From a virus, in IMG/VR virus record IMGVR_UViG_3300010392_000731, positions 1 through 56,508 of that record: a stretch of 56,508 bases of DNA; one strand, given 5' to 3'. This document shows, in pieces, positions 21,536 through 47,428 of this stretch. Every line of letters begins with the position of its first letter. Position 1 is the stretch's first letter. The notes beneath the pieces are model-generated. The model ran no database searches. It was given only the letters and a program-made list of their open reading frames with translations, and was not told where the DNA came from. A program made the position numbers and the translations under genes.

Positions 21536-24500
21536 TTAAAAGGTATGCGTCGGAACTACACTGCCCAAACCAGCAGCCTCAAACGGTGAGTGGATTAATC
21601 CACCAAACGTCTCAGACTTATTGATCAAGTTAGCTTCGAATATTGTATTCACGTCAGTACCTAAAGCTTCCTGTATTGTTAGCTCAGTAGCTAAACTTAT
21701 AGGTCTATCACGAGCCATGCGGTAGATAATCTTCTGAATACGTAACCAGAACGATGGGAACATTATGATTCCAGCGTCACTGAGTTGCTTAATTGCCAAT
21801 GGCATATTTTCCTTGTAGTCGGGGAACGAGTCCAGAACGCTGATTCTAGCCTCCTCAGAGCTCATACCCTTCTCTTGAGTTAAATACCGCCATAGTGTCT
21901 CCTTAGCGAGAACGTCCGTTAAATCGGTCATTGCGGAGCCCACACGAACTGCTTCGCTGCTCGGGGATGTAGTGAACTGCGCAACGTAGTTTACAATGTC
22001 CTCTTCACTTTTGATCTCTCGGAGCCTGTCCGACACCTGGTCGAGTTCCTGCTGAATTAACTTAGTGGATTTTGCCTGACCGGCAATACCTCCCAAATAA
22101 GCGAAGAAGTCCTCAGCTTGGTAGCCAACTTTCTGCAACTGAATAACGAAATGGGATACGATGTTTTTGTTACCCGCTTTCTCAGTCAACAGATACTCCA
22201 AGGCTGTGTGCATATCAGCTTGAAATCCCGACAGTGTGTCGGCACTCCGTGAGACCAAATCTGATCCTAATGAGTTAACAAATCCCTTATCGCCAATATC
22301 ACCGATCGAGTTGGCCTTTAAACGTTTTTGGAGATTATTCAAATGCTTCTTAACCTTAGCACTCTCCGGTCTGGATACAAGCTGGAGTTTGGCCTGAAAG
22401 ATTTGCCTTTGAAGTTCAGAATACTCCGCAAAGTCAGTACTGATTTCCTTGTAATTGCGACTGATGAATACAGGATCCAAACCAAGTACCCCAAGATAAG
22501 CCAGATTGGAAAGGTTATCATTTGCGATCTTGATTGGATTCAAGACAACCATGCCGATCTTAGCACCAGATATAAGATCTTTGAGGATACGAACAGCCCA
22601 TTTAAGTTTGGGGTTTTCGAAGAGGCTCTTCGTACTACCGCCCAGGAGCCAATGGGAGATGTCCTTCCTTACCAGGTCAACATTCTCATTGAAGTTCTTC
22701 ACATTAGACGCCCTGTTTCCGACGGGCATGTACTTGGCTCGAATGGGAACGGGAAGTTTGGAGTACTCTGTTCCCTCCTCGAGCTTGATGAACCAGGGGT
22801 TGTCGACGTTATCAGATTCGATGATGGTCTGGAGTTTGTCGATGCTTTTTCCATTCCCTATAGTCAGGTGGGTATCTTCTTTAAGGAGCTCATCACGGAT
22901 GATCTGAGACTCCTTGATACTGACGCTGTGCGCCGTAGAGCGAACGAGTCCTTGCCCAAATTCCTCTATAAGCCCTAGTTCTTGCTTCTGCTCTTTAGAG
23001 AGCAACAGCTTGTGACCATTTTTGGTTTCCACCACACCAGGAAATTTCTTCATGGTCTGTGACACGTCGATGTCAGTAGAGCTCAACTTCGTGTCAGTGT
23101 AAGCGCCAGCAATATCGGTAGAGTCGATAACCGGCTTGTACACCACACCCAACTCAGTCTTGGTTGGAGATTTAAGTATCTTCCAGCCAGTCTCCTCGCC
23201 AAACTCAAACATGCGAAAGTCTTTCGCTTCAACTGCCTTGATCTGAAAAGGCTCCTTCCAGTAATCCATAACCAAACTGTCACGAACATTAGAAGTTCCC
23301 TTGTTGTCGAGAGTAGACAACGCATTAGCAACGCTGTTGTCCTTGATCACCTGCATCAACTCCTTATGACCTAGTAGCTTCTCAAACTTCTCAGAGCCAA
23401 AGCGCTTGATTGACTCCAGCGCCAGGAGCTTACGCATGTCCAAAGCGAAATCGCTATCTTTGGCTCCCTGCATAGCTGTACTTGCATCCAGGTTGTAAAG
23501 CGTACCTGTAAGGTTACCGTCAATATTCCAATCCACTAGTTGATCAACGTCGCGCACTCCGCGTGCGCTCAGCTTCCATAGTCTCTTTCGCAGAAGCTCC
23601 GCTTCCGCTTCAATCTTTTCAGCAGTGTCGAGCTCTCCCTTTGGGTCCAAAACAAAATAGTCATGCAAAGGCATTTGTGAAGTTATGATATCAAGGTCAG
23701 CGAGTTCTTGCGGCTTTAGGTCTTTGCTCAGCACACGAATTTGTGCCATCTGATCATTAATGATTTCAGTGCGCTGGGCATTGATTTCAGCAAACTTCGA
23801 CAGGACGTTAGCTTTCTTCACCTTGTCAACGCCTTCACCGGTGACGGTATGCAGGAACTGCTGCAGAGCAGGAGAGCTGTCATATATGCCAACGGCCTTG
23901 TTAGCTGCGTCAACGTACAGCGGAAAGCGTTCGCTCAGTATTCTGTGCAAGTTTCCAAGCATCTGCTGTCCCTTACGCTCAAGCCTGCTGTTAAGCATGC
24001 TAGATACAGCATAGTTCAGATAGTCGAAGGAAGCCTTTTTGGTGTACTCTGCAGGCGTCTTTGGAGCAACGCCAAGCTCTACGCCTTGAGTATAACGCTG
24101 AGCTTCCTGGTACTGCTGTTCCCGGAACTCGAGTCCCTGGTCCAAAGTACGAGCCAAAGCTCCATGCACCTTTTCGATATCCAGTTCACTTTCCATGTCT
24201 TTTTCAGTCAGCGCATCAAACCAGGTGCTTACCCTCTGCATAAAGGCCTTTATACGCCCTTTTAAGCTCTTAGGGTCGACACCCTGCTTACGGCCTAGCG
24301 CAGCGTAGATCTCTTCAGAAACGGCTGTTTCTGCCCCCATAACGGCCACAAATTCAGCAACCATCTCACCAGGCGTTCCTCTGGTAAGTATGTAGCTGGC
24401 TCTTGCCTTTGCGTCATCGCTAACGTCCGTTGTTAGGATGTTCGCCAAACCTTGTGCTGCCTTGTGCAGATAACGGATATCACGCAGTGGTCCAGCTTCG

Positions 24501-25378
24501 TTCTGCTCAGTCAAATGCTTGGCCAGGTACGCAGCTGTATTCACATGCACTATCTCATGCTCGAGGATCTCTTTCTGCTTCTTGAAGTCAGCCGGGTCAT
24601 TCAGGTCCAGAGGCTTGCCGTCAAGTCCTTCAAAGGCGATATCGGTGCCTGTGAGGTTTACAACATCCTCACCTGCCATGTATGAGTCCGTGAATGCGTC
24701 CAGGAACAGCCCTGAGCGCTTATCTCCCATAAAGTGTGCGATGATGTCGCTTGCTTCAGAAAGCTTCTTAATGGCCTCTGAGAAGCTCTCACGGGTAAGG
24801 AATAGTCCACCAGGACGTTTCTTACTCTGTATTTTGCGGATCACTGCCGGATCTCCTCCGCCAGGTCCAGCTTTCAAGTTACCGGTCGCTGGGTCCTTAC
24901 GTTTCGGCTTCGCCTCAACGACGTTCCCGGATGCCCTCTGGGGCACCCCAGCTCCCTGTTGGTTCTTGGTCAGGCTCTCATCTGATTCCAATCCAGATTC
25001 TGCACGGGCCTCCTCCGAACCCGGCGATGCCGGATTCTCAGTCGGCTGCAGCCGTGCAGAACTTGGATTCTCCCTTGTTACCGCAGGTTCTGTTTTACTC
25101 GAAATTAAAACTTTTTCTCCTTCCACGGCCGCTTCGCTGGCCGTTCCCTGAGAAGAAGTTTTATTTTCTCCTAAAAAAGATCCTGCTCTTTCAACCTTTA
25201 CGCCCTTGGACTCGATTAGTTTAATGGCTTCATCTTGCTCGCTCAGCACTAAGCCTTTGAGATTTTCTAGTATCTTCTCCTCAGAAATAGTGGTGTTCTC
25301 TAAACGGTCAATTAGATATTTTCTGTCACCCTGGTCAAGCGACTTGCCTGCCTTTGTGATACAGCCTTTTAGTGCCAT
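21536..25378 (-). CDS. Very large virion-arm protein with HExxH metallopeptidase motif
   Basis: The 1280-residue product is the last gene of the late arm. After a Ser/Pro/Glu-rich spacer (about residues 65-185) comes a domain with HEIVH (H274, E275, H278) in a helix. A second helix follows about 60 residues later with Glu candidates for the third zinc ligand (GEMVAEFVAV, E338 and E342). This is the gluzincin-type layout. The remaining ~900 residues are mainly helical with no domain I can name. Its size and place suggest an ejected internal virion protein or a phage polyvalent protein. The peptidase could process virion proteins or cut the host envelope. In N4 the 3500-residue RNA polymerase occupies this terminal position. 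Confidence 0.65.
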   Translation of the reverse strand: MALKGCITKAGKSLDQGDRKYLIDRLENTTISEEKILENLKGLVLSEQDEAIKLIESKGVKVERAGSFLGENKTSSQGTASEAAVEGEKVLISSKTEPAVTRENPSSARLQPTENPASPGSEEARAESGLESDESLTKNQQGAGVPQRASGNVVEAKPKRKDPATGNLKAGPGGGDPAVIRKIQSKKRPGGLFLTRESFSEAIKKLSEASDIIAHFMGDKRSGLFLDAFTDSYMAGEDVVNLTGTDIAFEGLDGKPLDLNDPADFKKQKEILEHEIVHVNTAAYLAKHLTEQNEAGPLRDIRYLHKAAQGLANILTTDVSDDAKARASYILTRGTPGEMVAEFVAVMGAETAVSEEIYAALGRKQGVDPKSLKGRIKAFMQRVSTWFDALTEKDMESELDIEKVHGALARTLDQGLEFREQQYQEAQRYTQGVELGVAPKTPAEYTKKASFDYLNYAVSSMLNSRLERKGQQMLGNLHRILSERFPLYVDAANKAVGIYDSSPALQQFLHTVTGEGVDKVKKANVLSKFAEINAQRTEIINDQMAQIRVLSKDLKPQELADLDIITSQMPLHDYFVLDPKGELDTAEKIEAEAELLRKRLWKLSARGVRDVDQLVDWNIDGNLTGTLYNLDASTAMQGAKDSDFALDMRKLLALESIKRFGSEKFEKLLGHKELMQVIKDNSVANALSTLDNKGTSNVRDSLVMDYWKEPFQIKAVEAKDFRMFEFGEETGWKILKSPTKTELGVVYKPVIDSTDIAGAYTDTKLSSTDIDVSQTMKKFPGVVETKNGHKLLLSKEQKQELGLIEEFGQGLVRSTAHSVSIKESQIIRDELLKEDTHLTIGNGKSIDKLQTIIESDNVDNPWFIKLEEGTEYSKLPVPIRAKYMPVGNRASNVKNFNENVDLVRKDISHWLLGGSTKSLFENPKLKWAVRILKDLISGAKIGMVVLNPIKIANDNLSNLAYLGVLGLDPVFISRNYKEISTDFAEYSELQRQIFQAKLQLVSRPESAKVKKHLNNLQKRLKANSIGDIGDKGFVNSLGSDLVSRSADTLSGFQADMHTALEYLLTEKAGNKNIVSHFVIQLQKVGYQAEDFFAYLGGIAGQAKSTKLIQQELDQVSDRLREIKSEEDIVNYVAQFTTSPSSEAVRVGSAMTDLTDVLAKETLWRYLTQEKGMSSEEARISVLDSFPDYKENMPLAIKQLSDAGIIMFPSFWLRIQKIIYRMARDRPISLATELTIQEALGTDVNTIFEANLINKSETFGGLIHSPFEAAGLGSVVPTHTF

Positions 25379-31523: not shown

Positions 31524-31886
31524 TTAATTTAATCTCCGTTGTTTTGGGTTTAGTTCGATACCGGTCTTAAACAGACCATTTGTGTCACGTTCAAAGTCTA
31601 TTACGTAACTAGGCGCAGCAGTCATCTTCAAATCGATCTTAGCTTCCAAGCTTCTGATTGCGTCTACCAGGGGTTTCATATCAGGACCCTCTTCGCCGGC
31701 CATGAGTATGACCTTGCTGAGCTGGCTGAGTTGTTTAGTGATAGCTTCCTGAGACTTCAGGTTGGCAACTTTCATTGCTTCGAGCTTGTCGACTAGCTGA
31801 CCCAGGCCTTTAACGTTTACAGTGCTCGAGGTATCAGTTACCTTCGCACTGGAAAGTCTTTTGGCTCTTTCTAGTTTGCTAGACAT
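31524..31886 (-). CDS. Coiled-coil hypothetical protein, 120 residues
   Basis: It overlaps the RNA polymerase gene by 16 bases and follows it in the transcript. The product is largely helical with heptad-like stretches (LGQLVDKLEAMKVANLKSQ, LVDAIRSLEAKIDLKM) and ends in a basic tail NPKQRRLN. No family recognised. It may be an assembly or tethering factor for the polymerase; that is inference from coupling. Confidence 0.5.
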   Translation of the reverse strand: MSSKLERAKRLSSAKVTDTSSTVNVKGLGQLVDKLEAMKVANLKSQEAITKQLSQLSKVILMAGEEGPDMKPLVDAIRSLEAKIDLKMTAAPSYVIDFERDTNGLFKTGIELNPKQRRLN

Positions 31887-34882
31887 ACTTTAAGCTGCTC
31901 TACCATGGCAAGTCGTGATTGTATTTCATTCCAGTGCTCTTGCGCTTTAACTTCGACTGACTCGTTACCTTCGGCCAACGTGATGAAGGTATTACCAAAG
32001 TCTTGCTCGGCTAGTGGAGCTCCTGGGTTTGAATCAGTGGACTTTACAGCAACTTCAGGAGCCGTGTCAACCTCTGCCGCAGGCTCGGTCTGCTGGTTTG
32101 CGAATTCTTCGAAGGCCTTACCATCGCCTATCAGGGCGTCAGTCTCTTCATTGAATAGCTCGCTGATGATCTTCTGCTTCCTGGCTACATCTTTATCGAT
32201 GCGGGCTTTAAGAGCTTTAAACTCCGCAGAAGCTGCGATTTCAGGTGACTGGGCAGCTATTGACTCCATTATTTGCTGATGAACATCGTATTCGCCGGCC
32301 AGCTTCTTTGCGTTCTTCACATACTGAGCTTCCACAGCTCTTACAGTTTGCACTGAACCGCGGACATCATCGTGTATGGTGACAAGCCCTTCCTTCGTAC
32401 CTACGTCTGCTATGGAGTGATACAGCAGTGCTGCGTCCTGTCCATGGGTAGTGGATACGTCCATGACAGTTTTCCGCAGCTTCTCCCTCCGGGTCAGCAC
32501 AGTGTCAGGCTTGCCTTTGAATTCGTTCAGCACTTCTACCTGTTTGGTGAGAGGCATACCGTAACGATTTAGATCGCCTGGAGTGGATGCTTTCTTACCG
32601 CTCATCACAGCCCCAGCTGGCAATACCTTAAATGGTATGTCTGCAGGCAGCTGTTTAACGAAGGCGTAAACCTCTTCGGACCTGGCGCCATATTCGGTCA
32701 AGAACTCATCTTTTATGTTCTCCTCCATGATATCGAATATTGTGCCTGGCAGCTCTGTGTCTACCAAACGTTTTACGATGTCGGTGTAGAGTTCAGGAAT
32801 GTTCCGTAACTCCTTGCCTTCTAACGAGTTATACTTCTTATCGTTGAATAGTTTTGTTAGATACTCACGAGTTTTTGGATCATCCAAGTTGTCGATTATA
32901 CGATCGGCTAAGCCTCGTGATAGCGTCTGCACAGCACCCTCCCGGCCTTGGCCGTAGACGAATGTCATCGTAGGATCCTTTGAGAACTCACGAACGTCTT
33001 TATTCCTGGTCTCTTCAGACTTTATGAATAGCATGTCCAGAGTATCCTGGAGAATACCTTTAGTGTCCTCTGCTCCAATGTCAGATCCGAGTCCTTCTTC
33101 ATCTTTTAAGTGAGCTTCAATAGCCTCTGTCATCAACCCGTACAGATCGTCAAGATCCTTCGGTACCAACTGATCAGGCTGTAGCATACCAATACGTTGC
33201 AGGAACTCGGTTACCCGCTCATTAGTTCCCAGTGCCTGCATAAATGTCAGTGTACCACCGGATGCAGTAGCGTCTACTGACACTGTGAATTCAGTAGTCA
33301 CCTTGCCACCTTTCGCATTACGGACATCTTTCACGGCTTGCAGTGAAGTCAGCAGGCTGACGTAGTCGACACCATTGAATTCTTTTATCTTAGACAACCT
33401 TCCCAACGCTGTAAGCTTACGCTTCAGTGTAGGCGCTGCCAGGTACGCTTCGTAAAGTTTAAGAGCCGGATCCAACCTGGTACCGCCCACAATGTCACCG
33501 TAGCTATGCTGTCCGCCAAGCCCTTGGTGTATTCCATAGATCAAATAATCGTAGTCACCGGTTCCCGTATCTATGGTGTACTCGCCTGGGGTAAGCATGT
33601 ACCGACTCTGCTTGGAGCCGTGTGCATTGAGTACGCTGTTCAGGTTGTACAGTCTGGCGTTACGGCCGATCTTCATCGGTATGTGCAGATCCGCACCCTC
33701 GAGCAGGTCGTAGTACTCTACATAGTCATCCAGGGGGGTGGTCTTTGATAGGTTTTGCCCGCCAATAGATTGTTTTTTATCGATCGAAAAGTCATCTGAC
33801 CTCTTCAGACCGAACAGGGATCTGACCATGTTCTTCCTGGTACCGAATATCTCGTTCACTCTCTTACTGGCGGACTTACCTGTGCTCTTTACTTCTTCGT
33901 TAAATACCTGGAGTAATCCTCCAAGTGCTTTATTCACACGCAGTGGATTCTCATACAAGCTTTTTCGAGCTTCGGCTGTCTTTGGGTCTGGCTCATTGAC
34001 TCCATCGTCCCATTGAGCGAGTTGTTCGTCGGTAGCCGTCGGCTTGGTATCAGGCAGGATAACAGTGCTTGGCTGCAGTAGTAGATTGGCTACTCGGAGT
34101 TTCTCGGTGATTACACCCAGATCTGTATCGGCCAAATCTGCATCTGATCGTTTTAAGAAGTACGCAGATTCTTCTGTGTTTGGTTTTATTCCCAGTTTCT
34201 GTTCATCCAGGGATACAGACAGTACATCTGACCGGGTCAATTCGTTCTCCGGGAAGTCCTTTTTCAGATCTGATTTACTCTCGTAATCCATGATAGTGGG
34301 TACATTGTCTTTCAGGACAACATAACCTGCATTTTCCAATTGTTGTAAGGCTTCTTTACCAAGGTCGTAGTACATTGCCTCGATTCTTGCCGCGGTATCT
34401 TCGTTGCTTGCACGCTTGAACCGGTACCCTTTCTGGAACGCAATCTTACGGCCGATGCTGGCAGCTACCCTTGAGAGAGGTAGAGCCGGCGTAATTCCTG
34501 TGTCACTAACGGATGTTATCTCCAGGCCTAGATTCCTGGCCTTGTCAGCTTCACCTTTCACGGATTCCATCATCTCGTGCATTGCGATCGACATTTCTTT
34601 GTTGAACTTATGATCCAGTACTTCCTTTTGAAACGCAGCACCTTTTGCGGACGATTGACGGATCCTTTTCAAGGATGCGTCAATTTTACTGTTGATGCGT
34701 AAAGATTGATCAGGATCGGGCAGGTCTGCCATTGACAGCTTGCCGGTGACATTCTTTACTTGCTCAGACGTTGTCTCCCACACGTTATAACGTAGGGGTT
34801 TGTCCTTCGTCTCATCGATAGCCACTTTCTGGTTGATAGAGAGGATGAACTGGGTGAACTCATTGAAGTCTAGGCATGCCAT
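31871..34882 (-). CDS. T7-like single-subunit RNA polymerase, probable virion RNA polymerase
   Basis: The 1003-residue protein contains the catalytic motifs of the T7/N4 RNA polymerase family. The R-x-Y ... N-x-x-G segment is NARLYNLNSVLNAHGS (about 408-423; compare T7 RGRVYAVSMFNPQGN). Motif A is SVDATASGGT (D537; T7 has DGSCSGIQ). Motif B is REFSKDPTMTFVYG (R631, K635, Y643; T7 R627, K631, Y639 with identical spacing). The THGQDAALL helix (H813, Q815, D816; T7 VHSQDG) leads to motif C TIHDDVRG (H837, D838). It is encoded among late virion genes, as in N4, where the polymerase is packaged and transcribes early genes from hairpin promoters. N4's enzyme is about 3500 residues; this one is close to the catalytic mini-vRNAP alone. 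The ATG overlaps the upstream stop (TAATG). Confidence 0.85.
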   Translation of the reverse strand: MACLDFNEFTQFILSINQKVAIDETKDKPLRYNVWETTSEQVKNVTGKLSMADLPDPDQSLRINSKIDASLKRIRQSSAKGAAFQKEVLDHKFNKEMSIAMHEMMESVKGEADKARNLGLEITSVSDTGITPALPLSRVAASIGRKIAFQKGYRFKRASNEDTAARIEAMYYDLGKEALQQLENAGYVVLKDNVPTIMDYESKSDLKKDFPENELTRSDVLSVSLDEQKLGIKPNTEESAYFLKRSDADLADTDLGVITEKLRVANLLLQPSTVILPDTKPTATDEQLAQWDDGVNEPDPKTAEARKSLYENPLRVNKALGGLLQVFNEEVKSTGKSASKRVNEIFGTRKNMVRSLFGLKRSDDFSIDKKQSIGGQNLSKTTPLDDYVEYYDLLEGADLHIPMKIGRNARLYNLNSVLNAHGSKQSRYMLTPGEYTIDTGTGDYDYLIYGIHQGLGGQHSYGDIVGGTRLDPALKLYEAYLAAPTLKRKLTALGRLSKIKEFNGVDYVSLLTSLQAVKDVRNAKGGKVTTEFTVSVDATASGGTLTFMQALGTNERVTEFLQRIGMLQPDQLVPKDLDDLYGLMTEAIEAHLKDEEGLGSDIGAEDTKGILQDTLDMLFIKSEETRNKDVREFSKDPTMTFVYGQGREGAVQTLSRGLADRIIDNLDDPKTREYLTKLFNDKKYNSLEGKELRNIPELYTDIVKRLVDTELPGTIFDIMEENIKDEFLTEYGARSEEVYAFVKQLPADIPFKVLPAGAVMSGKKASTPGDLNRYGMPLTKQVEVLNEFKGKPDTVLTRREKLRKTVMDVSTTHGQDAALLYHSIADVGTKEGLVTIHDDVRGSVQTVRAVEAQYVKNAKKLAGEYDVHQQIMESIAAQSPEIAASAEFKALKARIDKDVARKQKIISELFNEETDALIGDGKAFEEFANQQTEPAAEVDTAPEVAVKSTDSNPGAPLAEQDFGNTFITLAEGNESVEVKAQEHWNEIQSRLAMVEQLKVCLAN

Positions 34883-37620
34883 TAGACTTTACACTCCGGC
34901 GGATTCATTTTGTTGTAAGCGTCCTTTATCTTGTCAGTGGTGTCAAGCAGTAGGTTAGCGAACACATCTACCGCCTCATCAACTACCACGCTGGTGGGGT
35001 ACTGCTCCGCAAGCGCATCATATACGTCCATGTTCTTTTGGATACCTGGGAACTGTTCGGTGAAGAGCTCGAAGTCTGCTCGGGTTGTTATTCCTGATTC
35101 TCTCATCAATTTGGTGAAGGCAGGCAGACGTTCCAGCAGTATCTTCGTCAGCTTGGGATCTCCAGAGGCTAACTCAAGGTCCTTTAGCTCTTTAACCAGC
35201 TCAGGTGTGTAGACGGCTGCAGCTTTTTCTTCGGCTTTCTTTTTCCCAGATTCTTCGAGTTTGGATGTGACGTCACCCACTCTTTTTCCTACACTCTCCG
35301 CGGCAGCTTTAACAACTGGGGTTACATTCTCTGCAACAGCATCAGTTACTTTCTTACCGACGGATCTGGATGCCAGAGCGGCTTCCTTCTCCAGGCGTGC
35401 ACGAGATCTATCGAGCTTTCGCTTCACGATAACCATGTTGTCACGACTCATGGCGCCTTTAATCTGCTGCTTGAATTCTTCTGATTTCTCAATCAGTGCA
35501 ACTACCTTCTCAGTTTTAGACAGGCTCTCCAGATCTTCGAAGGTAGCAGCGGCTGTCTTGTTCAGCAGGCTGCTTATGGATGCTACTGAGTCACTGGCCA
35601 GTTTGGGCAGTTTTGAAGCTGCTTCTATACCTTTATCCAGAGTTTGTTTGTTGACAATTGACTTGACAACTACACCGGTACGCTCCAATGCTCTATTCTT
35701 TGAAGCGATGACTAGATCCAGGCTTTTAGCCAGCGTCGGGTTGATCTCACTTGTCACAGCAGTGACACGTTGCAGGTCATCCAGGCTGAGGGTTTTGGCA
35801 GCTTCCAGAATTTGTTTGGTCTCTTCCTTGCCGGCATTAGCCGCTAACTCAATCATACCGAGAGCAGTACTCGAGCGGAGTTCTTTAGTTGCCTTTACAG
35901 CTTTATCGCTGAGATCCTTAACACCTTCAATGACAGCTTTGGCACCAGGCGAAACAGCCCGGACTGCTGCAACTGCTGCGTTAGAAGCTGCAGATCCAAC
36001 ATTTTCTGCGGACTTCTTGGCTACAGCAGCTACTGTACTGCCTGCGAGCTCTGTCTTCAGCAGACCAATGTCTCCACGGTAGGTGCGAATGACGTCAGCT
36101 TTCAGCTTCTCGAGGGTCTTTCTGTTGCCAAGCTGCTCATCTGTCAAGGTACCTTGTCGATCGGCCACTACCTTCGCAATATCTGGGTTTTCTCGCAACT
36201 CGTCTATCGTAGTTGCAGCTTTTACGGTATCTACGGCTGACTGGAACTCAGATACCTTGGCGTCAACGATCTCTTTACGGCTGTTGAACTCGCTGCGTAT
36301 TACGTCTCGCTCTTCAGAGGAGAGTACTTTGTACGCTGCATTGTTAGCAACTGCGCTGACGACTTTACCGGCGCCTTTGACTGCGGCAACTGTTCCTTTT
36401 GCTGCAACTTTTGCGGTTCCTTTAGCTGTATCGAGTGTTGCTCCAGCTGCCACTGCAGGAACAGAGATAGCAGCACGAGCAGTACCACCAGCACCACCAC
36501 CAAGGAAGGATCCGGCGAGGGCTTGTAATTGATTGTCTTCATTTCCGATTAGCTCCTGTATAGATTTCCAGAACGTTTCACGCTCTTTGGGTCCTAACTG
36601 GACGTTTATGGCTTCAGCCCAGGTCTGGAAGTATTCCTGACCGGCTTCAGCTCCACCTGCTAATGTCACTTTCTTTGTGCCGTCAACTACTCGGCTCATG
36701 ATCTGTTTAAAGTTGGATCCACCCTTTATGTTTTTCGTCAGGGTACCTATCTCTGTCTTAATCTGTTTCTTGAAGTCAGGTATGAATAGGTTTTTGATGA
36801 TGCTTGGAGTAGGCAGCATGGTAGCCAGGTTAATGGCATATGATGTTGCGAGCTCACCACGATCCATATCACGTCCGTGGAGTTCACGGAAGTCATTGTT
36901 CTGACGCTGAGTGATGTCCGCGGTAGCTAAACTCACCTGTCCGGCAGCTTTAGGTATGCCTTTGAGTGCGTCGACAGCAATATTCTTACTGGAAGCTGCA
37001 GCGTTCTTCGCCAGGTTGTCTCGAGCTACATCGACCCGGTCGAATATACGGCTGATACCTTCCTTACCTTTCTTGACTCTGCGTCCTGCTACTGCCCGGC
37101 CACCAAGGCCAGTCGCCAAGGCGCCTACAGCGAGTTCGGGAATGACATTGGCTGAGTCAGCTAACGTTGCAGGTCCTGCAAGGACAGCTTGTCCAGCTGC
37201 ATCGAAGTAGTTACCTTTTGCCAGAGACTGTATAACTTTTTCTTGAGGATCTCCTACAATCCGCTTACGGGCTTCTGGTGTCACACCCGACGCAATGTCC
37301 GCTGCTTTAGAAATTTCTTCGTTAGCACGGCTTCCACCGCTGAAGAAGTCATATAACTGTTCCCAGCCTTGGCGGACTGAAGACTCGGCGATATCAGCCA
37401 GACCAACACCATCTGCTTGAAGGGCTTCATCGGCCATTGCTTGAGCAGGATCCAGAGCTCTCTTCTTTTCAACAGATGCTGCAGCTACAGTTGCATGCTT
37501 CTGTGAAGCAAGGGAGGGTAAGGCCAGAGACTCGGCTAAGCCGAAGTATGGGTCAGTGAGTTGCCTTTGGAGCTTTTCGTCTGCTGATAAGGGCATACCG
37601 TTAGTTCCGGCTACCCTCAA
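34882..37620 (-). CDS. Large helical internal virion protein, coupled to the RNA polymerase
   Basis: The 912-residue product is very rich in Ala, Lys, Val and Ser and almost wholly helical. Small-residue hydrophobic stretches near 150-185 (PELAVGALATGLGGRAVAG) and 365-425 (SFLGGGAGGTARAAISVPAV, then KGTVAAVKGAGKVVSAV) could insert in membranes. Such chains are typical of ejected podovirus core proteins. It lies directly upstream of the polymerase gene with a one-base stop/start overlap, and its size is close to the ~1000-residue N-terminal domain of N4 vRNAP, which is involved in ejection. Correspondence to that domain is an inference. Confidence 0.6.
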   Translation of the reverse strand: MRVAGTNGMPLSADEKLQRQLTDPYFGLAESLALPSLASQKHATVAAASVEKKRALDPAQAMADEALQADGVGLADIAESSVRQGWEQLYDFFSGGSRANEEISKAADIASGVTPEARKRIVGDPQEKVIQSLAKGNYFDAAGQAVLAGPATLADSANVIPELAVGALATGLGGRAVAGRRVKKGKEGISRIFDRVDVARDNLAKNAAASSKNIAVDALKGIPKAAGQVSLATADITQRQNNDFRELHGRDMDRGELATSYAINLATMLPTPSIIKNLFIPDFKKQIKTEIGTLTKNIKGGSNFKQIMSRVVDGTKKVTLAGGAEAGQEYFQTWAEAINVQLGPKERETFWKSIQELIGNEDNQLQALAGSFLGGGAGGTARAAISVPAVAAGATLDTAKGTAKVAAKGTVAAVKGAGKVVSAVANNAAYKVLSSEERDVIRSEFNSRKEIVDAKVSEFQSAVDTVKAATTIDELRENPDIAKVVADRQGTLTDEQLGNRKTLEKLKADVIRTYRGDIGLLKTELAGSTVAAVAKKSAENVGSAASNAAVAAVRAVSPGAKAVIEGVKDLSDKAVKATKELRSSTALGMIELAANAGKEETKQILEAAKTLSLDDLQRVTAVTSEINPTLAKSLDLVIASKNRALERTGVVVKSIVNKQTLDKGIEAASKLPKLASDSVASISSLLNKTAAATFEDLESLSKTEKVVALIEKSEEFKQQIKGAMSRDNMVIVKRKLDRSRARLEKEAALASRSVGKKVTDAVAENVTPVVKAAAESVGKRVGDVTSKLEESGKKKAEEKAAAVYTPELVKELKDLELASGDPKLTKILLERLPAFTKLMRESGITTRADFELFTEQFPGIQKNMDVYDALAEQYPTSVVVDEAVDVFANLLLDTTDKIKDAYNKMNPPECKV

Positions 37621-39675: not shown

Positions 39676-42441
39676 TTACTTAACCCCTGTCTGGAGCTGT
39701 TGATTGACGTAGTTGCCTACAAGACTATCATAATTGTAAAGCGTATCATACGCGTAATTACCTTGGATTGCAGGAAAACTTGAAGTATCAGCTGATTGTA
39801 GCGCAGTAAGGAACTGAGAATCAAGCGCTACTGCTTCTACGTCAGGCCTGTTTGCGAGTTCATCTTCTATTTTCTTTTGTGCTTCTGCAGCTGTTTCCTG
39901 CAGGTCTTCGGCTATTTCATTGGCTTCAACGTTCTCCAACAGCATCAGATTACCAGCGAATTCGGTACTGAGATCAAGTAAAGTTTCTGCCTGCATAAGA
40001 GTCTCAGTAGACAGCAACTCAGGGTTGCTGAGGTAAATAGCTGCAGCTACTCCAGCGATAGCGGCCAGTATGTTATTGCCAGTGGCGTCAGCCACGAACA
40101 TTATTAACTCACCAATCGCATAGTTGATTACCAGGCCTTGAACTGCTGACAGAAGACCTGCAGCAACACCTGAAGCTTTACCAAAGCTATAAATTGTAAT
40201 TACTACCGCTACTACTATCATCGCAAATTCGAACAGGTCAAAGAAAGCTTCTGTCTCATACCATTCTAGATGAGTGATATTTATTGCATTACAGTCTACC
40301 CTGGCCATGTACTGATACACTTCCATCTGCTCTTTGGCAGTTACAGTCTGGAATATGTCCCAGGATACAGGTATGGTGAATTCATCGTCACCAAGAACAG
40401 ACAGCGCAACCTCATGGTAGCTTTGATAGTTGATAGCCGTCATACCGTTCATGTTTGTCATTACTATCTGGTCATATGAGCCGGCTAACTTTTGGTATCT
40501 CATTGTCAAGGTAGTTCCTGATATAAAGTGCGTGTAGTCACCTTCAGTTGTCACCACCCCAACAATACCAGGTGTAAACGTATGGCTAGACCATACGATA
40601 GCATTTTCTATGTCACCTTCCTTTATGGTGGCATTGAACTGTCCTATATTAGACTGCAGGCCTGATGTAACAACAATCTGCTCCCAGGCCAGGTACAACA
40701 TTTTTGATACAACCTTGTTTGTGTCCAGCGGGTTCAACGCAAAATTAATGTACGCATCATCTATGTCACCAACATCTGGATTTGTTCCTATAGCATCGAG
40801 AAACTCTTCGATTTCTAGTCCAGCCCTGGCCATCAGCATTCTGGTTGTTATGTACTGATTACTGCCAGTACCATACAACGCGTCCAACTGCTGCTTTTCT
40901 TTCCGCAAAATGGCCAATGGCAGCATTTCTAAGTTGCTGATAACTGTGTCAGTTGGTAACAGGTCCCATGTCATATCACTGTGAGGATATATCCAATAAT
41001 TGTATTGACCTGGTATGGCGCTATCATCTTGATACGTAACTACCAATGAGGGCTCAGTGGTATAAGGCGCCTTCGTAATGGTGTCGTTATCTACCTTGGT
41101 TCCGGGGAGAGGCTCAAGTGTACCATCGATAATTGTCACCGTTGACACAGCGGTGATATCGATACTGTCGACATCGGTTGAGTTCTCGAGGAACACTTCA
41201 AACTGCTCTCTGTCATCGTCCGCAACATCTGCGTAGATATCTACCATGATCTGTTGAACTTCACCCACAGTACCAGCGAAGTTTAATGTGCCCGTTGTAT
41301 TGTCGTAGTCCACTCCTCCAGTTATTGATCCCAGGTCTGTAAAGTTGTAGTCGACATCGAAGGCTCCAGAAGGAGCAGCGAGCTCTAGTTTGACGTCAAT
41401 AGTGATAGTAACGTTGGCCTCATCTACGATTACATCGTTCATAGTCAGCTTCAATGTATCATCGTCTGTGATGGTGCAGTTGACAGTGTCCTGGCCGTTT
41501 ATAGTAACCGTCTCGAATACTCCACCTGTGTTGTCGATCGAGCCAATGGTTATAGCAAACGTCCGATTAGCATTGCCTGTCTCCGCGGTAACTATATCTA
41601 CTCCGATCTCGTCAGTACCAGCGAGCATTATTACTGAGGCAACTTCGGTGTAGTCCACTCCGTCTACAGCAGTACCTGCGTAAGTAAAACCAACGGTGAT
41701 CTGTTCTCCAGCTGGCACCGGTCGATTAGAATATACAGTGAAAGGTGCTGTATCGCCCTCGGTTATCTGAGAGGGCCCCAAGATCCAAAATTGAGCCTCT
41801 TCATTTGTGCGGCTGATATTTACCGTGTAGTTGTCAGGCCCTGAATTGTAATCGATATCCCCGACAATCCAACCTCCCATCGTAGCTCCATAGGTGTCAG
41901 TAAACGTGAGTGTATTGTCCCATGGCTGGTAGAACTCAGGAGCATCTTGCATTTCCCACCGGTAGTGATCTGTAGGAGTGGGGTTACGACTTATTGCTGA
42001 CAGAACTGTGTGTGTGGATCCAAATGTAGTGTCCAGAGCTTGTTGTACATCAGCGAAGTCGACAGCCACGCCAGCAATATTCATAGTAGGTAAACCGGCA
42101 TAGTATAGATTGAGCTCTCCGTACCTGAAGTAAGCCCGTATCTGCCCTTTAGTTCGGAAGATCTGCTGCATGTAGTTTGGGAAGTAAGATGTGTCAGTCT
42201 CAATTTTACTAAATATGGTTCTAACCAGAGCAGCCTGAACAACGTTTACGGTGTTGGTGGCGTAGATAGGAGACGATACCCTCTGTACGACAACTACCGT
42301 TTCATCTTCTATACCAAATATGGCAAATACCTGTTCCAGTATAGGTTCAACTATTTCGTCCCACACAACTTTTACTACGTCTGCGATTACCTCGATTACG
42401 GCAGTGGCAATATCTTCGAGGAACTCAATTACAGCGCTCAT
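39676..42441 (-). CDS. Large virion protein with two Calx-beta-like domains and hydrophobic segments
   Basis: The 921-residue product starts with an acidic amphipathic helix region (FLEDIATAVIEVIADVVKVV). Residues ~225-330 and ~335-445 look like tandem Calx-beta domains: ITEGDTAPFTVYSNRPVPAG with GVDYTEV and ITDDDT, then VIVDEANVTITIDVKLE with GGVDYDNTTGTLNFAGT and DDDREQFEVFLEN. They interrupt what seems to be one structural protein. Near the C-terminus are hydrophobic stretches (FEFAMIVVAVVITIYSF and NILAAIAGVAAAIYL). Calx-beta domains bind calcium in adhesion proteins. Membrane-active ejection plus adhesion is possible; the core family is not recognised. Confidence 0.6.
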   Translation of the reverse strand: MSAVIEFLEDIATAVIEVIADVVKVVWDEIVEPILEQVFAIFGIEDETVVVVQRVSSPIYATNTVNVVQAALVRTIFSKIETDTSYFPNYMQQIFRTKGQIRAYFRYGELNLYYAGLPTMNIAGVAVDFADVQQALDTTFGSTHTVLSAISRNPTPTDHYRWEMQDAPEFYQPWDNTLTFTDTYGATMGGWIVGDIDYNSGPDNYTVNISRTNEEAQFWILGPSQITEGDTAPFTVYSNRPVPAGEQITVGFTYAGTAVDGVDYTEVASVIMLAGTDEIGVDIVTAETGNANRTFAITIGSIDNTGGVFETVTINGQDTVNCTITDDDTLKLTMNDVIVDEANVTITIDVKLELAAPSGAFDVDYNFTDLGSITGGVDYDNTTGTLNFAGTVGEVQQIMVDIYADVADDDREQFEVFLENSTDVDSIDITAVSTVTIIDGTLEPLPGTKVDNDTITKAPYTTEPSLVVTYQDDSAIPGQYNYWIYPHSDMTWDLLPTDTVISNLEMLPLAILRKEKQQLDALYGTGSNQYITTRMLMARAGLEIEEFLDAIGTNPDVGDIDDAYINFALNPLDTNKVVSKMLYLAWEQIVVTSGLQSNIGQFNATIKEGDIENAIVWSSHTFTPGIVGVVTTEGDYTHFISGTTLTMRYQKLAGSYDQIVMTNMNGMTAINYQSYHEVALSVLGDDEFTIPVSWDIFQTVTAKEQMEVYQYMARVDCNAINITHLEWYETEAFFDLFEFAMIVVAVVITIYSFGKASGVAAGLLSAVQGLVINYAIGELIMFVADATGNNILAAIAGVAAAIYLSNPELLSTETLMQAETLLDLSTEFAGNLMLLENVEANEIAEDLQETAAEAQKKIEDELANRPDVEAVALDSQFLTALQSADTSSFPAIQGNYAYDTLYNYDSLVGNYVNQQLQTGVK

Positions 42442-42920
42442 TTTTCGTGCACATCATTCAGATTAAGTAGGCCTACTATCTTCTTACGGAAGTCATCAAC
42501 TCGAACCATGAGAGGGTGATTTGCATCCCTGTGGCAACGCTTCATTGATATGACAGTGAGCATTGACTTATATTCATCCATGAATTTTCCTGGGTGCAGT
42601 TTAAAACGCATCATGTGGGTATCATTGTCTTCGAAGGAGAACACTCCAATGAACAGAGAAAGCAGATCCAGGGTATTCTGATGACCATATAAAGCGACTC
42701 CGTACGCCATCCTGAGATTGTGTTTCTCGTAATATAGGAATGTGTCATTCAGACACCAAGCGTTTCCATCTTCGATACAGTCAGCCATACGTTCCTGGAA
42801 AGCCTCCTTTTCACCCTCCGGGATCCAGTGCTTGATGCTCTGGTAGTGGGCGCCTATATCCGCCATAACGCATTGGCGGTAGTTCCTCTTCTTTTTAAAT
42901 AGATCATCAAGTACGGGCAT
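42438..42920 (-). CDS. Hypothetical protein next to the ketosynthase, 160 residues
   Basis: A soluble, His/Met-rich protein (MAYGVALYGHQNTLDLLSLF, HMMRFKLHPGKFMDEYKSML) that overlaps the ketosynthase gene by 14 bases upstream and the 921-residue gene by four downstream. It could belong to the acyl-carrier/ketosynthase group, for instance as an acyl transfer or target protein, or be a virion protein. No motif decides this. Confidence 0.5.
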   Translation of the reverse strand: MPVLDDLFKKKRNYRQCVMADIGAHYQSIKHWIPEGEKEAFQERMADCIEDGNAWCLNDTFLYYEKHNLRMAYGVALYGHQNTLDLLSLFIGVFSFEDNDTHMMRFKLHPGKFMDEYKSMLTVISMKRCHRDANHPLMVRVDDFRKKIVGLLNLNDVHEK

Positions 42921-43749
42921 TGGGTTTCGTTAACGTAAACGCTCCATAGTAGCCACCGAGGCCATTAGCAGTAACGAGTATCCTACCACGTATCTTTGGA
43001 TCGTCCAGTACTAAACATGTCTCTAGCAAAGCACTGATGCCTTGAGTGTGCCCTATGTCCTGTTTGTACGCCAGTGGAGTAGCTACCTGAGCCAGGCCAG
43101 CTTCTGCTGCAGTATTTGATGGGGTACCGGTACCGTGCAACTTGACATAGCCAACACGGTAGGAGGGGATTAAAGTATCGAGATCTTCCCTGGTGAAGGT
43201 GAACGGGTTGGCATTATATGACCACTTCCATTGCACTTGGCTGATGTCAAACCCTGCATCAAGCCGCATGTAAACGAAGCCATCTCCGCAGACGACGTCA
43301 ATACCTAGCTCTCGGAACAGCCGGACAGTGTCCGGAGTTGTCCGCTCTTGTCCGATTATTACTATCTCATCTACGTCACCCTCGGCCAGCAGGTCTTGAG
43401 CTCTTTTAAGTGCCAGTATTCCAGAGGCACAGGTGCCGGCAACTACCTCGAGTGACTTTAGGTGTTCGATATTCTGGAATGTAGAAGCCCATTGGTGAGC
43501 CATATAGGCACTGCTGCCTTTAATAGCGGTGACATACTTATCTGTGCCTTTACCAAGGCCAGCTTCGGACTGGGATATAGCTGTACCATCAACGTATATA
43601 AACGCTGTAGGCCTGGTTAACTTGACATACAAACGTGCCAGGTCTATGAACTGCGGTGTTGATGGTTTATCCCGATCGAGTTCGGGTATGATTACTTGCT
43701 TATTTTTGAGGAGACTTCCTGAGATGTGGACTGTTTCGATAATATGCAT
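42907..43749 (-). CDS. Compact beta-ketoacyl-ACP synthase-like protein (thiolase fold)
   Basis: The 280-residue protein has the active-site elements of FabB/FabF-type condensing enzymes: nucleophile Cys107 in VVAGTCASGILALKRAQDLL, His205 in VKLHGTGTPSNTAAEAG, Lys229 and His234 in YKQDIGHTQG with the exact K-x-x-x-G-H spacing of FabF, and a Gly-rich NGLGG near 262-266. All catalytic residues for decarboxylative condensation are present. It is shorter than FabF (about 410), so it is trimmed in the N-terminal and cap regions. It overlaps the carrier protein gene by 58 bases, so both should be translated together. Substrate unknown; an extracted role in host lipid synthesis or virion protein acylation is speculative. 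Confidence 0.8.
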   Translation of the reverse strand: MHIIETVHISGSLLKNKQVIIPELDRDKPSTPQFIDLARLYVKLTRPTAFIYVDGTAISQSEAGLGKGTDKYVTAIKGSSAYMAHQWASTFQNIEHLKSLEVVAGTCASGILALKRAQDLLAEGDVDEIVIIGQERTTPDTVRLFRELGIDVVCGDGFVYMRLDAGFDISQVQWKWSYNANPFTFTREDLDTLIPSYRVGYVKLHGTGTPSNTAAEAGLAQVATPLAYKQDIGHTQGISALLETCLVLDDPKIRGRILVTANGLGGYYGAFTLTKPNART

Positions 43750-43979
43750 TGGCGTACGAGTTCCCGTATAGTTAGTGTTTGAAAGTCCATGGTTGACAGA
43801 GCATCAGCGTCAATTGGCACGTCCTTGAATATAGGGTAATCTGCTTCAAGCGTGGCAATGGTGATGACTGTTCCGAGACTGTCGAGTTGTGCGTCACTGA
43901 ACATACTGTTCATAGTGACACGCTCACCTTTCTCATCAACGATTATCTCATTGAGTCGATCTAGTATTTCTTGCTTCAT
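43692..43979 (-). CDS. Acyl carrier protein
   Basis: The 95-residue protein is acidic and helical with the carrier signature DAQLDSLGTVITIATLE; Ser34 in D-S-L is the expected 4'-phosphopantetheine site. The C-terminal helix TIRELVRQCI fits helix IV of the family. A tail of ~17 residues overlaps the ketosynthase gene in another frame. No phosphopantetheinyl transferase is visible here, so host AcpS would have to load it. The start follows AAGGAAAACCA. Its place inside the late structural operon is unusual. Confidence 0.8.
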   Translation of the reverse strand: MKQEILDRLNEIIVDEKGERVTMNSMFSDAQLDSLGTVITIATLEADYPIFKDVPIDADALSTMDFQTLTIRELVRQCILSKQSTSQEVSSKISK

Positions 43980-43989
43980 TGGTTTTCCT

Positions 43990-44667
43990 TTATGGAATGG
44001 TTACTGAAGAACCTACATCTGCGAGTAGCTCATCACATACTGCGTCGATGGAAGGCTCCTTGGTGCAGTCCGGAGCCGTAGCTGTACCGGCGATGGACAA
44101 GGTTACAGCGTAGCCATCAAGCATTTGCTTGAGAATTTTCTGCTTGGTATCACTGGCGAACCCGAGAGTTTGGGCTTCTATCAGTGTCTTCTTGGAGAAT
44201 AAGAGTCCACCAGTTGGATCTGAAGTTTGTGCAAGTTCACTTTCTTGCTGCTGCCCAACCAGGGCAACGTCAGCGTAAATTTTGGCTACCTGGCCAATTA
44301 CCAGGTCGACCTTGTTCTGGGCTTCGGAAATCTGCTCATCGATAAGTCCGGTACCAGTGCTGGCTCCTAGAACCAGGTCACCGTCCACGTCCGTGGTTAC
44401 AGAGTAACCCCATTGCTTTTCAACAGTGGCTTCGAGTATGGCCGCTTCCATAGCCGTTTTGTCTTTGTTTAGGAGGAAGGCGATCGAGCTCTTCAGTACT
44501 TCCTGCATGACACCCAGGTAAACCTGTGCGAAATCTGACCCGGTTATGCGATCTTGGTCATATTGGTCCTGGAGCCTGAGCTCTGCAGTCTGCATGAGGG
44601 TATCGAAAACACCATCGCCTGGTGCGGATACCAGTTCATTGGTCAGGTCTGTAAGCTTTACGGTCAT
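43990..44667 (-). CDS. Tail-type virion structural protein
   Basis: The 225-residue product (LTDLTNELVSAPGDGVFDTL, then QDQYDQDRITGSDFAQVYLG) resembles a conserved structural protein seen in many marine and enteric podo- and siphoviruses, with helices and an N-terminal L-x-D-L-x-N start. The Gln-rich helix near 120-150 is probably a coiled coil. Role: tail or head-tail region, from resemblance recalled and context. Confidence 0.5.
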   Translation of the reverse strand: MTVKLTDLTNELVSAPGDGVFDTLMQTAELRLQDQYDQDRITGSDFAQVYLGVMQEVLKSSIAFLLNKDKTAMEAAILEATVEKQWGYSVTTDVDGDLVLGASTGTGLIDEQISEAQNKVDLVIGQVAKIYADVALVGQQQESELAQTSDPTGGLLFSKKTLIEAQTLGFASDTKQKILKQMLDGYAVTLSIAGTATAPDCTKEPSIDAVCDELLADVGSSVTIP

Positions 44668-44722: not shown

Positions 44723-46279
44723 TTACGGTATAGCACCCATCGACGGAGTTCGTTGAAATAATATGTAATCATCCAGCCTACTTGAGTCTTTCTGCATAAT
44801 AAAGGCCCAACCAGATTGACCCCAGACATCATCTGGTGATTGCTCGTGATAGTAATTTGCTCTGTTGTAGTTACCCGGATCAAAAGCCGGGTGATTTAAA
44901 GTGGTAATATCCCAAAGTGCTTGCAATCCGAGCCAAGGCTCTACTGTTGGCCTAGCAAATTGTGGTGCTATTCCAGGAGTTATCGATGCAGCATCGTACC
45001 AACCTGCCTGGTCTCTGTACATAATCCATGGTCTGGCAAATTCAGGCAAGTACATAAGGATGTATACGTTTCCAGTATTGCTGGCCATACCCATATCAGT
45101 GTAACTCCAACCAAGGTTGGTAAAGGTGTCAGGTCCCCAGGCAGCTGAGAAGTCAGTAATATCACCCGCTGCATTCATATATCCTTGGGCTGCAACTACA
45201 ACACTGCTGCCGTCAGTGGCCGTATGGTTCAAACCTCTGGTTCCAGCTCCACCAAGAATTTGGTTAGCAGTAACTTCTGTCCAGCCTGTACTACCGCCAG
45301 TATCTACCATTTTGTATCTGTATTGCTCAAGCACGGACTGCCAGTTAATAGTTACTCCATTTACTTCAAATCTTTTGTTGGTGTATATTTGCTCTCCGGC
45401 GTCACCTGGCAGCCAAACCTCAAGACTGTCTTGAGATACCCATGTCTTTCCGTCAGAGGATACCATTAAGGCTCTTGCTTGTACTGCTCGACTAGCTCTG
45501 TAGAATAATTGTAAACCAGGGTTCCACCATACCCCCATAGGGGCATCAGTGAGCCCGTTCCAGTCAGTATGGCCAGCTATTCCAGTAGCCAAAGGTATAT
45601 AAGTGAAGTTCACCAGATCCTCAGTCCACCAGGCATCACCATAGTATGAACTTATAACCCAAATGTCCAATGTCGGGGAATACGCGAATTGTCCAAGTAA
45701 GGAATTTCCACCTTGCCAACCTGGTAGAGTATTCGCTTCTTTGATAAATACCGGTTCATCTAACTCTGGTGTTGTCGTGTAAAGTCCTATGTTATCAAAT
45801 ATTGGAGTATTTTGTCTGGCAGAAAATACAACTAAGTCCCCACCATCGTACCCCAATCCGTATATAGCGTAATTTTCAGCCCACAGGTCATTGCTGCTGT
45901 TGATTGGGAAATTTGTTATGTAGGGATCTGGGCATATTTCAGGACCTCGTGTCAGTTTAGCCGGCGTACCGTTCAGTACGTAGCCAGGGACGTCTACAAC
46001 GTATATCTCCCGGTAAGCTTGAACTATGTGCGCCAGGTTAGTTCCGTCGCTCAGAGTCGCCTGGTGACGTCCAACGCATATAGGTGTAAGCTCGTAGGTG
46101 ATTTTCCCTTGAGTTGTAGCTGTCGGCGCCACATAAGTAAGTACTCCGTCGTCGGTGTACGTACTGACTCCACTGGGTAGTGTGAGGGCTACGTCGAAGT
46201 CGGCTTTAACCAGGGGCGCAGCGTTAGGCTGAATTATCCATTCGAAGGTGATAGTGGTATTTATTAAGTGAAATCCCAT
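44723..46279 (-). CDS. Beta-propeller-like virion protein, 518 residues
   Basis: Residues 1-100 are an Ig-like domain (ITFEWIIQPNAAPLVKADFD ... YTDDGVLTYVAP) shared with the next gene's product. Residues ~110-500 show repeated W/Y-rich strands (AYSPTLDIWVISSYYGDAWW, MVSSDGKTWVSQDSL, SSVVVAAQGYMNAAG), the look of a sialidase-type propeller. Such proteins are often tail appendages binding surface glycans. There are 55 bases without a feature before the upstream gene. Confidence 0.6.
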   Translation of the reverse strand: MGFHLINTTITFEWIIQPNAAPLVKADFDVALTLPSGVSTYTDDGVLTYVAPTATTQGKITYELTPICVGRHQATLSDGTNLAHIVQAYREIYVVDVPGYVLNGTPAKLTRGPEICPDPYITNFPINSSNDLWAENYAIYGLGYDGGDLVVFSARQNTPIFDNIGLYTTTPELDEPVFIKEANTLPGWQGGNSLLGQFAYSPTLDIWVISSYYGDAWWTEDLVNFTYIPLATGIAGHTDWNGLTDAPMGVWWNPGLQLFYRASRAVQARALMVSSDGKTWVSQDSLEVWLPGDAGEQIYTNKRFEVNGVTINWQSVLEQYRYKMVDTGGSTGWTEVTANQILGGAGTRGLNHTATDGSSVVVAAQGYMNAAGDITDFSAAWGPDTFTNLGWSYTDMGMASNTGNVYILMYLPEFARPWIMYRDQAGWYDAASITPGIAPQFARPTVEPWLGLQALWDITTLNHPAFDPGNYNRANYYHEQSPDDVWGQSGWAFIMQKDSSRLDDYILFQRTPSMGAIP

Positions 46280-46285
46280 TTCAGT

Positions 46286-47428
46286 CTACGGTTGATTATA
46301 TTGGTAAACAATAGCAGGGCTTCTGGCACAAATATACATGCTGGATTCAGAAGGTGTTATGTAGAAAGACTGGCTGCTGGTAGTCTCTGCATTAGTGGAT
46401 TTCTGTATACCAGAGTAACTTGCTGAAGATACAATCCATGGATCAGATAAATTATACTGCCAAACGTTGTTGCTTCGAGTTACGTAGAATCGAGTTCCGT
46501 CTCCGTTAAAACGGGAATCTTTATTTATAATAATCTCAGTAGAGTAATCGTAAAACACAGAGTCGTAAGATATTGAACTTAAATCCCAGGAAGTGCTGGC
46601 GGAATATTGATATACCCTGTCAAGATCAGACGTGAAAGTATAGAACTTATCACCATCCGGTCTCCATGCAAGACCCTGAATAAAGGTAGCTTCTGGTGTA
46701 TCGACAACGTTTCCACTATAAACCCCAGTGCTGATATCCCAAGGGGTACTCAAAGAGTATTCCCATATATTATTGCCGCTGTTGGGCGAACGTGAAACGT
46801 AAACAGCATCCCCGGATAAACTAAAAGTCATACTAACCGCCCAAGGTGAGGATATCAGTGCTCCAGTATCTAAACTTTTCGATGCGTAACTACCGCTAAG
46901 CAGGTCGTAAGGAGTACTCAACGTGTATTGATAGATAAACCCGTCGTCGATGTCGAGAACATACAATGCAGTTCCATCACTGCTTACATAGACACTCTCT
47001 GCAGAGCCTACTTGTGCTGAAACATTTAGGAATTGGCTTTGATAGGTTATTGTCGACAGATCATCGTAAAGTCCGATTGGCGGAATACGAGGTATAATAG
47101 GAGCAAGTCCTAGAGCTCTGGTACATGCTGCTGATACTGGAGGTGAAGCGAATATCCAGAAGTCTTTTTGATTGAGAATTGTGTAACTGGCACCAGTACC
47201 TGTGGCTAACCATATTGTCCATTTTCCGTTGGACGTAGGGGTGAACTTGTACTCCATGCAGCCACCGAAGAACTCGGAGGGAGCGGAGTAGTTTATTACG
47301 GCAGCATCAGTGTATGTGCCATTGAGGTCTGCAGGAATTATACGTACATCGTAATCGCTGGCAACAAGAGGTGTGTCAGTGGGTGGAAGTACCCAGGTTA
47401 TGGTTATCTCATTGCCAGCGATGTACAT
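46286..47428 (-). CDS. Beta-propeller virion protein with internal repeats, 380 residues
   Basis: An N-terminal ~100-residue Ig-like domain is shared with the adjacent 518-residue protein (ITITWVLPPTDTPLVASDYD ... YTDAAVINYSAP). Behind it are at least five repeats of the type IYQYTLSTPYDLLSGSY, IWEYSLSTPWDISTGVY, VYQYSASTSWDLSSISY and VWQYNLSDPWIVSSASY, each preceded by a FS.DG..VYVS-like strand. The period is about 48 residues, suggesting a five- or six-bladed propeller. Probably a surface appendage for receptor binding. Confidence 0.7.
   Translation of the reverse strand: MYIAGNEITITWVLPPTDTPLVASDYDVRIIPADLNGTYTDAAVINYSAPSEFFGGCMEYKFTPTSNGKWTIWLATGTGASYTILNQKDFWIFASPPVSAACTRALGLAPIIPRIPPIGLYDDLSTITYQSQFLNVSAQVGSAESVYVSSDGTALYVLDIDDGFIYQYTLSTPYDLLSGSYASKSLDTGALISSPWAVSMTFSLSGDAVYVSRSPNSGNNIWEYSLSTPWDISTGVYSGNVVDTPEATFIQGLAWRPDGDKFYTFTSDLDRVYQYSASTSWDLSSISYDSVFYDYSTEIIINKDSRFNGDGTRFYVTRSNNVWQYNLSDPWIVSSASYSGIQKSTNAETTSSQSFYITPSESSMYICARSPAIVYQYNQP

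Follow-up and report, generated by a model that had tools for sequence, protein, structure and literature searches.

Genes for an acyl carrier protein, a compact ketosynthase and a probable GNAT-fold protein between the tail tube and tail plug genes of N4-like phages: a possible acylation cassette

Gene layout

The window (the whole stretch of 56,508 nucleotides analysed, IMG/VR record IMGVR_UViG_3300010392_000731) derives from an N4-like (Schitoviridae) phage, and encodes an N4-type portal, a major capsid protein, the tail tube gp54, the plug gp53 and a virion RNA polymerase. According to cryo-EM data, the tail tube of N4 is made of gp54 and its tail plug of gp53, the hydrophobic knot of which corks the tube (PMC12633501); for phage DEV, see PMC12892993. 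Tube and plug genes are adjacent, with no cassette in between, in N4, LUZ7, Presley, PG11, pYD6-A, D505, PJN101 and PhiImVa-1. In the window they flank three genes, in the order tube, acyl carrier protein (ACP), ketosynthase (KS), third gene, plug (Table 1). Overlaps measure 58 bases (ACP/KS), 14 bases (KS/third gene) and 4 bases (third gene/plug), and the G+C content is 46.8% in the cassette vs 46.3% in the window. An earlier note, made from the sequence alone, had reported the ACP and KS reading frames and their 58-base overlap, a D-S-L site in the former, four catalytic residues in the latter, and a tie of the pair to virion genes. All these features were found as described. The third gene, the link to the tail plug and the conservation of the cassette in >100 phage contigs had been missed.

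Table 1. Genes and residues of the cassette and flanking tail genes
Feature	Position	Strand	Basis or remark
Tail tube, N4 gp54 homologue	43990..44667	-	directly precedes the cassette; phrog_2050, E 6.7e-39
Acyl carrier protein (ACP), 95 aa	43692..43979	-	ORF, and profile of relatives vs solved ACPs
ACP Ser34 codon, predicted phosphopantetheine site in L-D-S-L-G	43878..43880	-	
Compact ketosynthase (KS), 280 aa	42907..43749	-	profile, fold model, conserved catalytic residues
KS Cys107 codon, catalytic nucleophile	43429..43431	-	invariant in relatives; codon checked
KS His205 codon, HGTGT motif	43135..43137	-	invariant in relatives; codon checked
KS Lys229 codon	43063..43065	-	invariant in relatives; codon checked
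KS His234 codon, GHT motif	43048..43050	-	invariant in relatives; codon checked
Third gene, 160 aa, GNAT-fold protein, proposed acyltransferase	42438..42920	-	AlphaFold, Foldseek, phage relatives
Tail plug, N4 gp53 homologue, 921 aa, proposed acceptor	39676..42441	-	phrog_2220, E 2.9e-27
Plug residues 1-42, acidic amphipathic N-terminal extension	42316..42441	-	cassette-associated

The ketosynthase

Taken alone, the window KS matches Pfam domains below the curated cut-offs. Among its relatives, L002 passes the cut-off of ACP_syn_III, and L001 those of both ketoacyl-synt domains. A profile made from 36 relatives retrieved FabF/KAS II from the PDB at 6.6e-30. The AlphaFold model of the window protein (pLDDT 91.6, pTM 0.91) features a thiolase fold, and the structure-based search suggested in the earlier note matched it to FabF and to ketosynthases of FAS and PKS systems (best E 5.5e-11, probability 1.00, TMq ~0.6). 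The identity of the protein is settled because of its close relatives, which are 53–66% identical to it, and of a remote one encoded by phage ctpbd312 (MW202545), which is annotated as 3-oxoacyl-ACP synthase and scores above both KS-domain cut-offs. Most other matches of the L001 protein are in unannotated assemblies carrying phage names, which look like bacterial contamination and were discarded; ctpbd312 is a real relative. By homology and modelling, the 280-aa ORF is a compact ketosynthase of the FabB/FabF type with the full set of predicted catalytic residues. E. coli FabF (about 412 aa) exceeds it by about 130 residues, which are missing from the window protein ahead of the Cys, between this residue and the first His, and at the C-terminal end.

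Scans of viral contigs yielded 109 non-identical KS sequences, sorted into two lineages. Proteins measure 276–309 aa in the window lineage and roughly 362–409 aa in the second, and identity between lineages is 31% or less. Cys107 is conserved in all 106 sequences covering the column, and His205, Lys229 and His234 in 109/109. As the first His motif was part of some scan patterns, residues were counted again in KS genes picked only by position beside the third gene: all four are present in 58/58, and Asp-Ser in the 56 adjacent ACPs (56/56). Loss of the Cys or His residues in relatives, named in the earlier note as evidence against its reading, was thus observed in neither set. A chain-length factor or a KSQ-type protein devoid of the Cys is ruled out by the presence of this residue in every sequence covering the column, and chance resemblance by the relatives and the invariance of the residues. 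The same invariance in both lineages, with the Asp-Ser of the position-picked ACPs, argues against the notion that ACP and KS have ceased to be catalysts and taken on a structural or chaperone role in the tail. The location among tail genes and the compact size (280 aa) of the KS are in keeping with this notion, which is regarded as very unlikely.

For KS, ACP and third gene alike, dN is far below dS, denoting purifying selection. A KS tree with two cellular rows recovers each phage lineage as a single group, on long branches; with so few cellular rows and such branches, it cannot decide on the root, or on a single origin or acquisition of the phage KS. A scan of genome contigs for cellular or prophage copies of the cassette returned two short matches, apparently to ordinary bacterial ketosynthases. 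Derivation from a carried-over host fab operon was rejected, as FabG, FabD and other fab products are missing among the window proteins scanned, and the genes are syntenic with tail genes.

The acyl carrier protein

The window ACP alone has no match in Pfam. The homologue in the cultured Alteromonas phage PT11-V19 scores 20.7 bits against PF00550, the curated cut-off being 20.8. Profiles of the two lineages match solved ACPs at 3.2e-5 and 3.3e-5, the latter being the score of the window-lineage profile against NodF, its best solved match. Residues Asp33-Ser34 are invariant in 12 aligned relatives. The 95-aa ORF is, on these sequence comparisons, a divergent ACP with a predicted phosphopantetheine site. 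One ACP gene, gp30, has been reported as an auxiliary metabolic gene in phage R22Y (PMC11705849), and probably corresponds to the R22Y ACP gene located here.

The third gene

The product of the third gene was modelled by AlphaFold with a pLDDT of 82. Foldseek matches in the PDB are nearly all GNAT proteins, including N-terminal acetyltransferases (best E 4.8e-3, probability up to 1.00, TM ~0.5), and the named top matches among viral structures are mostly GNAT as well. Support for a GNAT-fold protein in the window lineage is hence fair, not strong, and the role of acyltransferase is a proposal. The canonical acyl-CoA pyrophosphate loop (R/Q-x-x-G-x-G/A) was not seen in third-gene alignments inspected by eye; its lack would suit a donor other than CoA, yet weakens the case for a typical GNAT enzyme. 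The Alteromonas phages PT11-V19 and R22Y have sequence relatives of this gene. In the second lineage, the third gene has no sequence match in Pfam or the PDB, and the two third-gene families are similar neither to each other nor to T7 gp13. No Pfam match to the HlyC family was found for the phage proteins. In contig L014 (124 kb), the ACP and KS genes are followed at 8560-9468 by a gene for a 302-aa protein, rather than the usual ~160-aa third gene.

Synthases of the LuxI and FeeM type feature a GNAT-like fold and use acyl-ACP as substrate, FeeL being a dedicated ACP. Synthesis of a small acylated molecule by the three enzymes, of the acyl-homoserine-lactone or N-acyl amino acid type, would agree with the GNAT-like third protein, but is hardly to be expected, given the lack of a Pfam autoinducer-synthase match and the constant association with a single virion gene and the N-terminal extension of its product.

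Cassette variants and losses

The position of the cassette between tail genes is constant in the two distant lineages. In R22Y and PT11-V19 the tube gene is followed by ACP, third gene and an extended plug, and the KS is missing. Since all the rest is kept, the KS may be viewed in Alteromonas phages as an add-on to a core made by ACP, transferase and plug. When the third gene of the second lineage was used as bait, both ACP and KS were found in 67 of the 72 scored loci. In L201 and L202 the third gene and the large protein gene following it are intact, the ACP is absent, and a KS remnant interrupted by an in-frame stop marks the recent joint loss of ACP and KS. In L182, ACP and KS are both absent and the other two genes present. 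ACP and KS can thus vanish jointly, while in Alteromonas phages the KS alone is missing. The pattern fits a chain-tailoring module set on a transferase and its target, and agrees just as well with an accessory role in metabolism. The KS remnants lie directly before the third gene (L202, around 4900-4970; L201, 1691-1810), match query residues 286-329, and contain an in-frame TAG.

The N-terminal extension of the plug

An acidic amphipathic extension of ~42 residues is found at the N-terminus of the plug in the window, L002, L006-L009, L011, L012, PT11-V19 and R22Y. It is absent from 9/9 cassette-free N4-like plugs examined, one of which, that of AD45, was assigned by position only; L015 is an exception, as it carries the cassette and lacks the extension. 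These co-occurrence counts do not take phylogenetic relatedness into account. When profiles of the two plug sets are compared, position 43 of the cassette-bearing set aligns to position 1 of the cassette-free set (6.7e-44). The large protein encoded after the third gene in the second lineage aligns to the plug over residues 1-44 only (9.3e-6); this segment is Val-rich, and the likeness could be compositional.

Plug and large proteins often begin with M-[SGAT]-[AGS]-[VIL]-hydrophobic (51/64, vs 4/254 products of other genes at the same loci), and residues 2-20 are free of Lys in 55 of the 64, both counts being uncorrected for relatedness. If the segment is the acceptor, the scarcity of Lys favours the N-terminal amine. 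Several of the cassette-free plugs of L145, L146, L148-L150 and L152 start with MG[LIF]F[SG], resembling the eukaryotic N-myristoylation signal, which is probably a coincidence.

A possible acylation cassette

The data suggest that the phage uses its own enzymes to link a fatty chain to one part of its injection apparatus. The genes in Table 1 would make up an acylation cassette set in the tail operon, in which the ACP is the carrier, the KS makes the chain, the GNAT-fold protein is the transferase and the tail plug the acceptor. This reading is put forward tentatively, its probability being judged slightly short of even; the chemical steps, the acceptor and its modified residue, the nature of the chain and the function during infection are what we infer from the computed features. 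The ACP would be converted into the holo form at Ser34 by a host phosphopantetheinyl transferase and loaded with host acyl or malonyl groups, from which the KS would make or lengthen a particular chain; host reductases would take part if the chain must be saturated. The GNAT-fold protein may then move the chain from the ACP onto an amine in freshly synthesized plug protein, the likeliest acceptor being the N-terminal residue (Ser, Gly or Ala) left after Met removal. The acylated amphipathic N-terminus could contribute to sealing the plug into the tip of the tail, or anchor that tip in the host envelope upon plug release.

Acylation of the plug is in line with the identified ACP and KS, both with intact active sites, the GNAT model of the third protein, the gene order with its overlaps, the KS-less core of R22Y and PT11-V19, the extension that tracks the cassette, and the start motif and paucity of Lys in the segment shared with the large protein. 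A precedent is CdiC, encoded next to cdiA, which acylates CdiA, the modified Lys being absent from loci with no cdiC (PMC8510554). Points against are the moderate GNAT match, the lack of similarity between the two third-gene families, the unextended plug of L015, the persistence of third gene and large protein in L182, L201 and L202 with no ACP and KS, the Val-rich composition of the shared segment, and co-occurrence counts that take no account of relatedness.

The identities of ACP, KS and GNAT-like protein do not name the acceptor, which might be another component of the tail, the ejection apparatus or the envelope, or a plug lysine, lysines being the residues to which HlyC and CdiC transfer acyl groups of acyl-ACP (PMC8510554). 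The genes for tail tube and ejection proteins are no farther away than that for the plug. Among the compared genes, however, it is the plug extension, mostly Lys-free at residues 2-20, that varies with the cassette, and a different acceptor is deemed unlikely, while keeping an appreciable chance.

ACP and KS could alternatively alter or divert late host fatty-acid synthesis, the third gene encoding a separate, T7 gp13-like protein for virion assembly. Their joint loss where third gene and large protein stay agrees with metabolic help, as do the interpretation of phage ACPs as auxiliary metabolic genes (PMC11705849, PMC8224337) and a GNAT gene found beside virion genes with no ACP in Cobavirus (PMC6775973). 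Neither the constant position among tail genes in two distant lineages nor the KS-less pairing of ACP and third gene in cultured phages would be expected of a general metabolic gene, which makes this explanation rather improbable. The earlier note had listed acylation of a virion protein, changes in host membrane lipids and drainage of host malonyl-ACP as options; the GNAT-like third gene and the plug extension favour the first, and the other two are less favoured.

Plug acylation can be extended to a broader, more doubtful view, held possible at somewhat lower confidence: many uncultured podoviruses may own a system for virion-protein lipidation, the first in phages, including a carrier, a chain maker, a transferase and an N-terminal acceptor segment on two otherwise unrelated targets, the lipid gating the tail or anchoring it in the host envelope.

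Relation to known systems

Rhizobial NodF, NodE and NodA are a dedicated ACP, a KS and an N-acyltransferase, respectively, and move a chain to an amine. The phage genes are alike in that a dedicated ACP and a KS would prepare the chain for an N-acyltransferase, and in the match of the ACP profile to NodF. In contrast, the Nod acceptor is a chito-oligosaccharide, and the phage cassette resides among tail genes, with no Nod genes. As in the toxin-activating HlyC/CdiC systems, a putative acyltransferase gene lies beside the gene of its proposed protein target and the donor would be acyl-ACP (PMC8510554); these systems differ in using the host ACP, in having no KS of their own and in modifying Lys. 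We propose by analogy that the cassette works like NodF-NodE-NodA or HlyC/CdiC and belongs to neither, because of the lack of a HlyC match, the lack of Nod genes and the different acceptors.

FabF/FabB (KAS I/II) and the ACP of type II FAS share with the phage proteins the thiolase fold, the Cys-His-His and Lys residues of the KS and the Asp-Ser of the ACP; the phage KS is more compact, and is unaccompanied by other fab genes among the window proteins scanned. T7 gp13 and the Cobavirus GNAT gene are likewise small GNAT-like genes located beside internal virion protein genes of podoviruses (PMC6775973), but ACP and KS are not described there. A Roseobacter prophage region, with genes in the order fabG-acpP-fabF, also brings ACP and KS genes together; the arrangement is host-like and includes fabG, and neither a tail operon nor a GNAT link is described (PMC8224337).

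The open-access papers searched describe phage ACPs, prophage acpP-fabF-fabG genes and GNAT genes beside virion genes; no report of an ACP-KS-GNAT-plug cassette was found among them. Phage ACP genes, so far filed as helpers of host metabolism, are placed here in a conserved virion operon, with a KS and a probable acyltransferase. If the proposal is correct, lipidation extends to phage tail proteins, with a bearing on tail sealing and engagement of the host envelope in podoviruses, and the cassettes provide acylation enzymes of compact size together with a segment that is their natural acceptor.

Other features of the window

The giant virion RNA polymerase is encoded in pieces by several ORFs. 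Residues 6-980 of the 2082-aa polymerase of PT11-V19 align to 31871-34882 (-), residues 1041-2082 to 21536-25378 (-), and about 6.5 kb of other genes separate the two ORFs; the N-terminal neighbour of the PT11-V19 polymerase aligns to 34882-37620 (-). Consecutive genes at 44723-46279 and 46286-47428 (-) encode proteins with a similar short N-terminal domain (ITxxWxxxPxxxPLxxxDxD) and different C-terminal parts; in L006, N-terminal domains of this type are encoded by separate small genes. Genes on the early strand (16421-17113, 142-612 and 12213-12620, +) include those for ThyX (Thy1), a dATP/dGTP diphosphohydrolase domain and a SegE-type GIY-YIG endonuclease.
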